A DNA stretch of 34,034 nucleotides from a candidate division FCPU426 bacterium. Its GTDB lineage: Bacteria; Oederibacteriota; Muellerivitia; Muellerivitales; Muellerivitaceae. The first letter of the stretch is position 1; every line of letters starts with the position of its first letter. The DNA lies in NCBI GenBank assembly GCA_030041545.1, contig JASHNQ010000113.1, positions 1 through 34,034 of the forward strand, read 5' to 3'. Position numbers and translations under genes: made by a program. Under the pieces are notes generated by a model. The model was not told where the DNA came from. It was given only the letters and a program-made list of their open reading frames with translations, and ran no database searches. Of the stretch, positions 9,579-19,322 are shown one piece after another.

Positions 9579-10415
9579 CTATAAGTTTTGTTTATCATCC
9601 AGGTTGGGGCGGAATTCCGGGATGGGTCGATTCTCCAACTGTTGTAATTTTTCCTTTGTCCGCTTATCCAGGTCCTCGATCTGGGCATTCAAGTCTTCCT
9701 GCTTTTTGCGGATTTCACCGGCGTCCTTGAAATCGCAATTTTCCCTCGCTTGGAGGAATTCCTTATCCAATTGCAGCCGTTGGTCCAACAGCCCTTTTAC
9801 TTGGTTGAGGTAATCCGTTCCGTCGTTGAGTTCCTGGACTTTCCTTGTGTCGCTTTCCGCCTGGAACTTTTCCTCCAGTTGCCGGTTGTATTCCAGGAGG
9901 CGGTCCAGGTTGAGCTTCTCTAAATTGGACCGCTTCTCCAGAAGGGCCAGTTCCTGGTCCATTTTGCTTTTTTGGGCCGCCTCCAAATCGTTTATATCCT
10001 TCAATAGTTCGCGCGCTTCACGCTTGTCGCCCGAGAGTTTGGCGGCCCGGGCCTGTTTCCGGAGCAGATCCTCCAAGCCCTTGCGGAGAACCCAGTTGTA
10101 AAGAATGCCCGTGTCCGACCTTTGGTCGGCCAAGGCGTTGATTTCTTTTTGGACCTCCTGGACCTGGTCCAGGAGGGGGGTGGGGACCCCTTCGGCGGCC
10201 GTGATGGCGGGGGTTGGAGTCCCCGGGGTTTCGGCCGGGATAGGGCCGGGTGCCTGAGGGGCCGTGGGAGCCGGGGTTGGGGACGCCTGGCCTGCGCTCG
10301 GGGAAGGGGGAGTCGGAACCCCACCCGTGGCCGTGGGAACCGGGGTTTGAGCCGCGAGCAAAAGGGGTGGAACCACCAACCCAAGGAATATCACGGCCCA
10401 AAGCCTTTTTCCCAT
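9579..10415 (-). CDS. Exported proline-rich coiled-coil protein, function unknown
   Basis: A 278-residue protein I do not recognise. The N-terminus (MGKRLWAVIFLGLVVPPLLLA) is a signal peptide. About residues 23-85 are very rich in Pro, Thr and Ala with repeated PTP/APTPS pieces, typical of a flexible envelope-spanning linker. The rest (about 85-270) is highly charged and helical with heptad-like spacing, ending in IPEFRPNLD. A periplasmic or cell-surface structural role is plausible. It is convergent with dsbD; the start ATG has an AAGGGGATC-type weak ribosome site. Confidence 0.75.
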   Translation of the reverse strand: MGKRLWAVIFLGLVVPPLLLAAQTPVPTATGGVPTPPSPSAGQASPTPAPTAPQAPGPIPAETPGTPTPAITAAEGVPTPLLDQVQEVQKEINALADQRSDTGILYNWVLRKGLEDLLRKQARAAKLSGDKREARELLKDINDLEAAQKSKMDQELALLEKRSNLEKLNLDRLLEYNRQLEEKFQAESDTRKVQELNDGTDYLNQVKGLLDQRLQLDKEFLQARENCDFKDAGEIRKKQEDLNAQIEDLDKRTKEKLQQLENRPIPEFRPNLDDKQNL

Positions 10416-11949: not shown

Positions 11950-11975
11950 TCCCCGCTAAAACGCAGTTGTTCCCA

Positions 11976-12545
11976 TAAGGGATTTTGGCCTTTTTGTGGC
12001 TAGCCCTCTCCAGCGCTGGGGTCTACGCCCCCAATGGGGATTGAATTGTTCGTATTACGAACAATTCAAATAAGGGTTTTTGGGGTATCCCGGCTCCCCA
12101 AGGAATAATTGGAAGCAAGACGGCCCGCCAGGAGTCAGGGTGTCCGCGCCGCGGACAACTCTCCCACCGCCAGGGCTTGAATTGAAAGCATTGCTATCAA
12201 TTCAAATAAGGGATTTTGGCCTTTTTGGGAATAGCCCTCCCTGGCGCTTGGGCCTACGCCCCCAGGAGGGGTGAATTGTCTGCATTGCAGACAATTCAAA
12301 TAAGGGTTTTTGGGGTGTCCCGGTTCCCCAAGGAATAATTGGACGCAAGCCGGTCCGCCAGGAGCCAGAGTGTTCGCGCCACAGACACCTTTTTCCCCGC
12401 TAGGGCTTTAATTGTTACTAATGGTAACAATTAAAATAAGGGATTTTGGTCTTTTCCGGGATAGCCCTCCTTGGCGACGGGGCCTACGCCCCCAGGAGGG
12501 GTGAATTGTCTGCATTGCAGACAATTCAAATAAGGGTTTTTGGGA
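11976..12545. repeat. Alternating A/B repeat array with covarying odd-length palindromes
   Basis: Five units in the order A-B-A-B-A plus the first 15 bases of a third B. A units (11976-12070, 12207-12300, 12437-12530; 94-95 bp) start TAAGGGATTTTGG; B units (12071-12206, 12301-12436; 136 bp) start TAAGGGTTTTTGGGG. Every unit ends in a palindrome with a single central base: 12041-12069 (arm TTGAATTGTTCGTA), 12177-12205 (TTGAATTGAAAGCA, one mismatch), 12272-12298 (TGAATTGTCTGCA), 12407-12435 (TTTAATTGTTACTA, one mismatch), 12502-12528 (TGAATTGTCTGCA). The outer AATTG/CAATT is constant while inner bases change on both arms together. A units also carry a second nested GC-rich hairpin (CCCTCC...GGAGGG enclosing GGGCCTACGCCC). 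No coding capacity is convincing. Confidence 0.9.
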
Positions 12546-12640
12546 GTTTACCCCCTTTCCCTTGAAGGGAGAGGGGAAAGTCTATAAGGCCTATGTCTAA
12601 TACCCTCGCCCCTTGCGGGAGAGGGTAGGGTGAGGGGTGC
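12546..12640. repeat. CCCTTTCCC/GAGAGGG-type dispersed repeat
   Basis: Runs of CCCCCTTTCCCTTGAAGGG and CCCTCGCCCCTTGCGGGAG with GAGAGGGTAGGGTGAGGGG, the same family as the interior of the element at 5063-5286. It directly truncates the third B unit of the palindrome array, so it may have inserted there or the array ends at it. Confidence 0.6.
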
Positions 12641-12723
12641 TTTGATCCGAAAATGAAGTTAACCCCGAGGCCCAGGCCCTAGCCTCTAGCAATCCTACAG
12701 CTCAAAATAAGGGGAATAATGAC

Positions 12724-13023: not shown

Positions 13024-13050
13024 GAACCAGTCACAATTTGTGACCGGTTC
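13024..13050. promoter_or_regulatory. Palindrome upstream of ORF6N gene, candidate operator
   Basis: 13-bp arms (GAACCAGTCACAA) around one central T with a single mismatch, 23 bp before the ORF6N start and just ahead of its ribosome site. The 15-bp core GTCACAATTTGTGAC recurs exactly inside the gene at 13277-13303. An autoregulatory site or an mRNA leader hairpin is plausible. Confidence 0.6.
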
Positions 13051-13073: not shown

Positions 13074-13813
13074 ATGTCGGAAAAACCCGGTGAATATTCC
13101 GCCCAGACTGTGGAAGAGCTTATCCTTGTCCTGCGGGGGCAAAAGGTCATTTTGGACTCCGATTTAGCCCGCATTTATGGGGTTCCGACCAAACGACTGA
13201 ACGAACAGGTCCGCCGCAATAAAGAAAGATTTCCACAAGATTTTTCCTTTCAATTAACCTCACAAGAGGCGAAGTATTTGAGGTCACAATTTGTGACCTC
13301 AAACTCAGTGGGTTTGATGCGGTCGCAATTTGCGACCGCATCAAAAAGGAATGTTCGACATCTTCCTTATGTTTTTACCGAGCATGGGGCCATGATGGCG
13401 GCGAATGTGTTGAACAGCCGCCAAGCCGTCAAAATGAGCGTTTTCGTGGCTTGGCCGCCCGAGACATCGAGTCGAGGGCGAAGATTGCCAGTGCCTATTT
13501 AACAGGAAAAGACAATAGGCGAAGGGCCTTCGTGCGGTTGCGGGAAGCCCTTGCCCTGCACAAGGATTTGGCCCGGAAACTGGAGGCTCTCGAAAGGCAA
13601 GTCGGCACCCATGACGTCCAGATTCAAGAATTGTTTGACGCCCTTCGAAAATTAATCCAAGGTCCGGAAAAACCCAAACGCCGCATTGGGTACATCGCCG
13701 AGGAGAAGAGGGCGGTTTACCGAGTTTTAAAGGGGCTGGCCGAAAAGGGTGAGGACCCGTTCAAGGCCGTGATAAAGGGTGACCAGCCCCCCAGTAGCTG
13801 GAAAGATAATTGA
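13074..13813 (+). pseudogene. ORF6N-domain protein gene, frameshifted
   Basis: ORF6N (phage KilA-N-associated) proteins are DNA-binding domains of phages and mobile elements. Codons from ATG 13074 (GGAGGA just upstream) give the conserved start: VEELILVLRGQKVILDSDLA, YGVPTKRLNEQVRRN, FPQDFSFQLT, then YVFTEHGAMMAANVLNSRQAV and KMSVFV. The usual continuation RAFVRLREALALHKDL is present but in another frame from 13523. The 74 bases between (13449-13522) look like an insertion of 3n+2 that breaks the gene. The downstream frame continues to 13813 (LARKLEALERQVGTHD, then PKRRIGYI). The first frame stops at 13502. Both halves might still be made, but the full protein is not. Confidence 0.8.
13277..13345. 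repeat. Two perfect palindromes inside the ORF6N coding sequence
   Basis: 13277-13303: 13-bp perfect arms TTTGAGGTCACAA around a T. 13313-13345: 16-bp perfect arms TTTGATGCGGTCGCAA around a T. They encode LRSQFVTS and MRSQFATA, so the protein carries a tandem RSQF-T repeat. The first shares its core with the upstream palindrome at 13024-13050. Confidence 0.85.
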
Positions 13814-18457: not shown

Positions 18458-19069
18458 ATGTCTCCGGAACAAAACCAAAAATCGGTTGGAATCTCTAAGC
18501 TTTTGTTGGGCTACACCATTGGGTTATTTGCCTGGCTGGCGGGTTTGCATTGCATGGAAGTGGACCCGAACGGGAATGTCCACCTTTCCCTTAAAAAATT
18601 CGCGAAACATTTCCTGAAGGTGTTTCTTTGGGCTTTGGGCATCGGTCTCCTGGCCCAACTCAGCGGGGCTTATTTGGGAAGGTCGGGAAAGTCCCCCGCC
18701 TGGGGGCTGGCGGTGGTCTTATTGGTTTGGGCGGTTTTGTTTTTGGTTTTGAGGTTCGTGAAAAAAGGAAGTTTTTTGTGGGTCCTTCCGGGGTTCCACC
18801 GGTTTTCCTGCTCCCAGTGTTACCAAAGCCAAAGCTTCCGGTTCCAACCCGTTTCCTTCCAGTTGGGCTTTTGGGTGACCTACCTTTGCCCCAATTGCTT
18901 CTGCCTGGTCAACGGCGGGGGGGAGCAAATTGTCTATCCGGTCAAGGTTCCATTGGGCAAATTCACGCCGGGGCTTCTTCAAAGCATTCCGGGGGTGATC
19001 GCCGCGATCGTCCTCGGAACCCTTCCGGGTTGGGCCCTCGCCCATTTTCTTTTGACTAAGAGTCTCTAA
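18458..19069 (+). CDS. Membrane protein with zinc-ribbon-like loop (full-length MSPEQN copy)
   Basis: 203 residues, function unknown. About four membrane helices: roughly 13-31, 52-72, 81-101 and 176-197. Between the last two is a soluble loop with two CxxC pairs, Cys118/Cys121 (FSCSQC) and Cys144/Cys147 (LCPNC), suggesting a bound zinc. The first 54 residues are duplicated at 15413 and 16939. Truncated copies end just where the second helix would begin. The ATG follows AAGAAAGGGTCCCCC; no clear ribosome site except AAAGGG. Confidence 0.7.
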   Translation: MSPEQNQKSVGISKLLLGYTIGLFAWLAGLHCMEVDPNGNVHLSLKKFAKHFLKVFLWALGIGLLAQLSGAYLGRSGKSPAWGLAVVLLVWAVLFLVLRFVKKGSFLWVLPGFHRFSCSQCYQSQSFRFQPVSFQLGFWVTYLCPNCFCLVNGGGEQIVYPVKVPLGKFTPGLLQSIPGVIAAIVLGTLPGWALAHFLLTKSL

Positions 19070-19091
19070 GAAAACTCAAAAACAAAGGCCG

Positions 19092-19287
19092 TTTGAACCA
19101 CCAAGGCACCATGCCGACCCTCCATAAAGCTGTTAAAGGGGTCGGTATAGTACCGATTTCATTAACTCAGTTATGGTGAATCGGCACAAGGGCACCAAGA
19201 AAGGCCAAAGGAATAATCTTGGTTTCGGGTCACTTTTAATCAATTTTTTTGCAGTTCTTGGTGCCCTTGGTGCCTTGGTGGTTCAAA
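19092..19287. repeat. CACCAAGG-type inverted repeat with a nested 75-bp insertion
   Basis: The right arm (19255-19287, 33 bp) is the exact inverse complement of a left arm split in two: 19092-19111 and 19189-19201. Between them lies 19112-19188, beginning TGCCGA and with TCGGCA at 19181-19186, flanked by CA on both sides. The insertion is itself hairpin-prone (TCGGTA/TACCGA; CCATAA/TTATGG). This fills the gap after the membrane-protein gene. Confidence 0.75.
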
Positions 19288-19322
19288 TGGTTTTTTAGAG
19301 CCTCGTAAAATACTGACCCCGT

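Follow-up and report, generated by a model that had tools for sequence, protein, structure and literature searches.

What kind of DNA element ends each of its units in a palindrome, changes the inner bases of that palindrome from copy to copy, and nevertheless keeps the two arms matched? The question is raised by an array within a 34,034-nucleotide stretch of DNA from a little-known soil-dwelling bacterium of candidate division FCPU426 (hereafter the window), which is contig 46 of a 3.8-Mb genome (G000).

Anatomy and setting of the array

A reading made from the sequence alone (the sequence-only reading) had described units alternating between 94 and 136 bp, with palindrome centers at 12055, 12191, 12285, 12421, and 12515, and TRF together with a repeat search of the window reproduced all of these figures exactly. 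TRF reported this as the only array, a 230-bp repeat in 2.5 copies with 84% matches (11975-12544) arranged A-B-A-B-A, and the repeat search returned five 56-nt members spaced 136, 94, 136, and 94 nt apart. All five units lie in one orientation (Table 1). The inner bases (TTCGTA, AAAGCA, TCTGCA twice, and TTACTA) were correctly read, as was the outer AATTG/CAATT, which is constant both in the array and across the family described below. Five palindromes with one central base are indeed present, but only three are perfect: copy 2 (AAAGCA/TGCTAT) contains an A-A mismatch and copy 4 (TTACTA/TGGTAA) a T-G pair. The core of palindrome 4 is identical to that of a copy elsewhere in the genome (G000:C45:5861).

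Every palindrome of the array is followed by a 3' box, with exact pattern matches at 12204, 12298, 12434, and 12528 in addition to that beside palindrome 1. One further box lacks a preceding palindrome; it opens the array and represents a first unit that is truncated. The additional palindrome of B copy 1 has decayed in B copy 2. The second nested hairpin attributed to the A units is present only loosely, as a G+C-rich fold common to A copies 2 and 3 but different in copy 1. DNA folding z scores of the five A and B units were -4.7, -2.7, -4.3, -2.0, and -4.3.

Table 1. Positions of the array, its units and palindromes, and the neighboring ORF6N locus in the window
Feature	Coordinates	Strand	Evidence or remark
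Whole array A-B-A-B-A, period 230	11976..12545	+	TRF and direct repeats
3' box without preceding palindrome, CATAAGGGATTTTGG	11974..11988	+	one-mismatch pattern match
A unit copy 1, 94 bp, palindrome 1 at end	11976..12069	+	
Palindrome 1, arms 14, one central base, core TTCGTA	12041..12069	+	model R1, 76.2 bits
3' box AAATAAGGGTTTTTGG adjoining palindrome 1	12068..12083	+	exact pattern match
B unit copy 1, 136 bp, palindrome 2 at end	12070..12205	+	
Second palindrome in B copy 1, TGTCCGCGCCGCGGACA, arms 8, one central base	12141..12157	+	
Palindrome 2, core AAAGCA, one A-A mismatch (93%)	12177..12205	+	model R1, 75.1 bits
A unit copy 2, palindrome 3 at end	12206..12299	+	
Palindrome 3, arms 13, core TCTGCA	12272..12298	+	inverted-repeat search
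B unit copy 2, palindrome 4 at end	12300..12435	+	
Palindrome 4, core TTACTA, one T-G pair near center	12407..12435	+	inverted-repeat search
A unit copy 3, palindrome 5 at end	12436..12529	+	
Palindrome 5, arms 13, core TCTGCA	12502..12528	+	inverted-repeat search
Noncoding palindrome just upstream of ORF6N gene, one mismatch	13024..13050	+	core GTCACAATTTGTGAC as in gene
ORF6N-domain gene beside array	13074..13502	+	PF10543, 1.9e-32

The array sits in a toxin-antitoxin island with HicA, HicB, ORF6N, HI1420-type antitoxin, CopG antitoxin, HTH, and Fic genes. Plasmid and phage collections contained no DNA match to it, and a search of viral contigs likewise gave nothing. Synteny with four relatives (G001, G002, G003, and G007) yielded no clean empty site, the flanking genes being on different contigs, and we found neither a target duplication nor a mobilizing enzyme for the element. 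Two other dispersed repeats lie in the window. One, of the CCCTCTCCC...GGGAGAGGG type, is very abundant, with many copies per relative, and lies directly downstream of the array (12553-12643); the other, of about 250 bp (19053-19309), also has many copies, above all in G002.

A family-specific element with a free, symmetrical core

A dispersed palindromic DNA element, special to one FCPU426 family (f1), has been amplified locally in tandem to form the array. The element has the layout AATTG-N6-N-N6'-CAATT followed by (N)AAATAAGGG, with the box always on the same side. Other copies do exist, with strong matches in five genomes of this family and nowhere else (G000, G002, G003, G005, and G006), and BLAST, a covariance model (R1), and the 3' box alone agreed in finding them. 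A scan of named genomes with AATTCAAATAAGGGNNTTTGG returned FCPU426 records, nearly all with palindromes, and elsewhere three single matches without one.

The sequence-only reading had also noticed that the inner bases change on both arms together, and this joint change proved to be far above chance, in the array and in the family. Among 20 copies, 10 of 13 pairs showed double changes, and cells changed on both sides numbered 48, compared to a mean of 13.3 in shuffled sets (0/500), so that the arm covariation extends beyond the copies of the array; pairing was 92.7%, compared to 23-42% when the arms were slid, a control that collapses. As this set was partly picked for long palindromes, selection by the box only (AAATAAGGGNNTTTGG) is the fairer test, and there an adjoining palindrome was present in about 17 of 22 family matches (counted by hand, with two matches set aside that we read as HU-type coding sequence). 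Pairwise difference between noncoding copies was 3% in the outer arms and 5% in the box but reached 51-53% for the core and 43-66% for the flanks, indicating that arms and box are constrained in sequence and the core only in symmetry. Between the repeat copies of the array, the core had changed at 7 of 18 pairs and the flanks at 38 of 254 sites (p = 0.016, a value based on few sites), while the outer arms showed 0 changes.

Palindrome counts, which covered about 452 kb of G000 together with samples of its relatives biased toward clusters, also exceed chance: about 403 kb of the window's genome held 35 palindromes with arms of at least 11, compared to 1 in a Markov control. Among palindromes with arms of at least 9, the spacer length peaked at 1 (28, 12, 25, and 8 in G000, G003, G006, and G005, versus 9, 1, 5, and 2 at a spacer of 3); G000 has a second peak at 5.

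The base pairs themselves bear on whether the symmetry belongs to RNA or to DNA. RNA hairpins had been proposed for the array. Whether as hairpins of transcripts or as a family of small RNAs, they might be taken to be favored by the RNA folding z scores of the units (-4.7 to -1.4) together with a weak Rfam match (cow-rumen-3, 30.7 bits). That match is far under the gathering score of 86.7, however, and no Rfam family was found at threshold. A covarying RNA stem should also hold more G-U pairs than the 3 among 241 standard pairs of the 20-copy set (2 of 120 inner cells); the inner pairs of noncoding copies comprised 80 Watson-Crick, 1 G-U, and 3 mismatched. Furthermore, a hairpin loop does not need symmetry up to a one-base center, and the same paired pattern occurs in coding DNA. 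The near absence of G-U pairs and the symmetry to a single central base thus argue for a DNA-level feature, and we consider an RNA origin of the pattern very improbable. Taken together, these data identify a real, family-specific dispersed palindromic element in whose core symmetry itself, rather than sequence, is kept at the DNA level; the core changes freely yet stays symmetrical, possibly with a new class behind it.

Several further features were seen. A MITE-like element of about 170 bp with ends CGGAACTATGCACTTGGC occupies the core position in two copies (L009, ~621-790; L172, ~9893-10063), and two type-A copies in G006 (L078, 15459-15537; L175, 9954-10030) lie at the 5' end of truncated-looking RHS-like frames. 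G005 and G006 carry further palindrome families with constant outer and variable inner pairs (L079, 14278-14705; L081; L175), including TTTAT...ATAAA and GGTTTTACCA... types, mostly with a one-base center; to us, their outer arms recall Burkholderia parS.

In-frame palindromes in ParB-like and ORF6N genes

The same palindrome type occurs in frame in the family's ParB_N-domain genes, after the HTH in what we take, by comparison with ParB, to be an inter-helix loop (LLNTEARALIVRDADNSNKGIWGISD and similar); only ParB-like genes carry it. Group-A genes have the AATTG type; the palindromes of group-B genes are odd but different, and most of them are accompanied by the same box. The palindrome sequence differs between paralogues. 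Most of these genes contain no longer palindrome over their entire length, and the in-frame palindrome is mostly at least as long as the longest obtained after synonymous-codon shuffling. The homologue G004:C329 lacks the palindrome but has a loop of equal length, so that neither can the loop be taken as a clean insertion nor this gene as a clean empty site. Fragments of ParB-like genes can be recognized in some noncoding copies; one in G000 (C22) is identical to the C43 gene across palindrome and box, with about 35 bases unchanged, and differs from it in the flanks.

The ParB-family proteins encoded in the genome match PF02195, with weak TIGR00180 and TIGR04285 matches under NCBIfam cut-offs. 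Multi-copy ParB-like proteins of 450-880 aa, under the ParB and Noc cut-offs, are present in FCPU426 (L064, L057, L075, and others), and the one encoded on C69 has a second ParB-like module. Nothing related to the ParB-like protein was present in the plasmid collection.

The ORF6N gene beside the array presents a parallel case. It contains two in-frame odd palindromes (13277-13303 and 13313-13345) that differ from the array element but are of the same kind. Most ORF6N genes tested in other, distant genomes (L220-L247 and L288-L297), chosen by Pfam match only, carry such a palindrome, with arms of 12-17 at the LRSQIVTS position and sometimes in tandem in-frame copies; after synonymous shuffling, arms averaged about 5. 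Across positions 2-13 of the 24 ORF6N genes with the motif, we counted 283 Watson-Crick pairs, 0 G-U pairs, and 5 mismatches, and the amino acids encoded by the two arms change in step (R/T, I/I, S/V or A, C/G). Ten plasmid ORF6N genes included two with the long form, and short cores were present in others. In Segatella and Legionella fallonii, translation of the core GTCGCAAATTGCGAC follows a different frame and gives VANCD instead of SQIA, which again points to DNA rather than protein. An operator role, suggested by the second copy upstream, was set aside: such a copy was seen in the window, with related copies in G000:C43, but in few of the 24 loci scanned. A literature search found no related description of ORF6N genes with palindromes.

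Proposed copying between arms and competing explanations

From this anatomy we infer that the element is dispersed in the manner of BIMEs or Rickettsia palindromic elements, its arms and box being read by sequence and its core held symmetrical by arm-to-arm copying; we favor this tentatively, at somewhat less than an even chance. Some factor would read the outer arms and box, for spread or for binding. Spread would occur by copying of short stretches that hold the box; in the array, a composite A+B unit would then have been duplicated in tandem. The core sequence would be free, with palindromy kept by template switching in replication, the process of quasi-palindrome correction, allowing the core to change fast without losing symmetry. 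Such copying would explain the perfect arms, the missing intermediates, and the fast joint change, and the nearly binary state of the pairs (80/1/3) is what would be expected if arms were converted rather than mended stepwise, the argument also made for coding palindromes of Nematomorpha (PMC6649704). Template switching is reported to produce multi-base compensatory changes (PMC8794818) and is known to homogenize arms in coding DNA (PMC8604942, PMC8794818, PMC6649704). Two observations speak against copying, however. With fold-back switching, a loop of about 3 nt should escape correction, whereas the spacer peaks at exactly 1, so that inter-strand switching must be assumed; and neutral copying does not explain why gene palindromes are found mainly in two DNA-binding families. 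The lack of an empty site, a target duplication, and a mobilizing enzyme counts against the favored explanation as well.

The one-base center and the preference for genes of DNA-binding proteins instead favor double-stranded dyad sites. Paired binding sites for a dimer had been offered for the array from the start and stay the main rival, in the form of two-fold symmetrical sites, like parS or the KorB operator, of ParB-like dimers whose arms covary as specificities diverge; each paralogue would read its own core, and the in-gene copy would be its own putative site. We regard this as rather unlikely, though to be taken seriously. ParB-family proteins use palindromic sites, those of KorB being odd-centered, and odd symmetry to the central base with a spacer peak at 1 is what such sites would show. 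Nearly all clear in-gene cases of the family are ParB-like or belong to another DNA-binding gene, ORF6N; the ParB-like proteins have weak ParB/Noc similarity and match Spo0J in the PDB set. Noncoding copies also match a resident gene core in two genomes, G000 (C22 and the C43 gene) and G006, where the C23 and C26 copies resemble the C24 and C9 genes. On the other hand, one core per ParB is the rule in ParB-parS and KorB systems, whereas the four symmetrical cores of this one array would need four paralogues, and none equals the two known in-gene type-A cores of G000. Most cores, moreover, are unmatched by ParB-like genes of the same genome; G002 (84% complete) has type-A sites and no detected ParB-like gene, G006 has type-A sites but group-B genes only, and most ORF6N genes outside FCPU426 lack a second copy within 1.5 kb. 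Nor would a symmetrical dimer need a conserved box on one side.

That one-sided box, with a constant foot and a free paired stem, is also the layout of single-stranded DNA hairpin sites for a transposase, relaxase, or recombinase (REP/RAYT-, attC-, or oriT-like). The units fold strongly as DNA, and IS3-type transposase, PIN/RHH, RHS, and other toxin-antitoxin genes are found close to clusters. Yet the base pair beside the single central base is kept, which a hairpin does not need, and we consider such a site improbable. Y1_Tnp (PF01797) is present in G000 and G006 but absent from the copy-rich G003 (99% complete), which led us to reject Y1/RAYT as the mobilizer, and integron integrase (TIGR02249) was above cut-off in 0 of 10 genomes; RNA, integron, and REP/RAYT readings are disfavored. 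The noncoding copies could also be unselected debris, recently scattered pieces of already-palindromic ParB-like genes on which nothing acts. Recognizable pieces are indeed encoded by some, such as LLNPEARGLIGRDSTNSNKGIW (L072, 15093-15371), and L079 (16838-17365, minus strand) likewise resembles group-B genes. With outer arms and box conserved where flanks cannot be aligned, and with array cores changed on both arms after duplication, debris is a slightly poorer prospect still than a hairpin site.

The sequence-only reading knew of no described element with this design, but three known systems come close. BIMEs, which the array resembles, are mosaic clusters between genes in which the spacers separating the palindromic units alternate; unlike BIMEs and the REP/REPIN elements associated with RAYT, whose stem is conserved, the element has a free stem (51-53% difference in the core against 3% in the outer arms) and occurs in G003 without a Y1 transposase, and the single orientation of the five units is a further difference. 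In integron attC sites, too, a paired stem of variable sequence is enclosed by constant outer boxes; no GTTRRRY/RYYYAAC attC cores were seen by eye in the element, which, with the lack of an integrase above cut-off, speaks against an attC origin. Like Rickettsia palindromic elements, the element occurs both in noncoding DNA and in frame in genes (PMC10969869), but those elements are about 150 bp long and enter many unrelated genes, compared to about 40 bp and one gene family here, and their arms are said to lose identity with time (PMC6649704), whereas here the arms stay identical while the core changes. Nematomorpha mitochondria have perfect in-gene inverted repeats with no excess of imperfect ones, for which arm conversion has been proposed (PMC6649704); these are long (up to 284 bp) and occur in many genes, unlike the short palindromes at one fixed site per gene family seen here, and the FCPU426 element differs further in its constant box and dispersed copies.

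Covariation is usually taken to prove a functional RNA; in this element it is present nearly without G-U intermediates, in noncoding and coding DNA alike, and so provides a natural test of template switching versus selection for perfect palindromes. In ORF6N genes, the same pattern recurs across many distant genomes and is open to testing in bacteria that can be cultured, and the need for arm-encoded amino acids to change together is a rare constraint on protein evolution. It is possible, although we think it less likely than the dispersal and copying favored above, that DNA-binding-protein genes of mobile islands (ParB-like genes in FCPU426 and ORF6N genes in many genomes of several phyla) carry a long-kept, in-frame odd palindrome of free sequence, either as a private, co-diversifying tag or as a self-correcting selfish palindrome. 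We found no description of such a class of symmetry-kept, free-sequence in-gene palindromes in the literature. If it exists, noncoding copies such as this array would have been seeded from genes.
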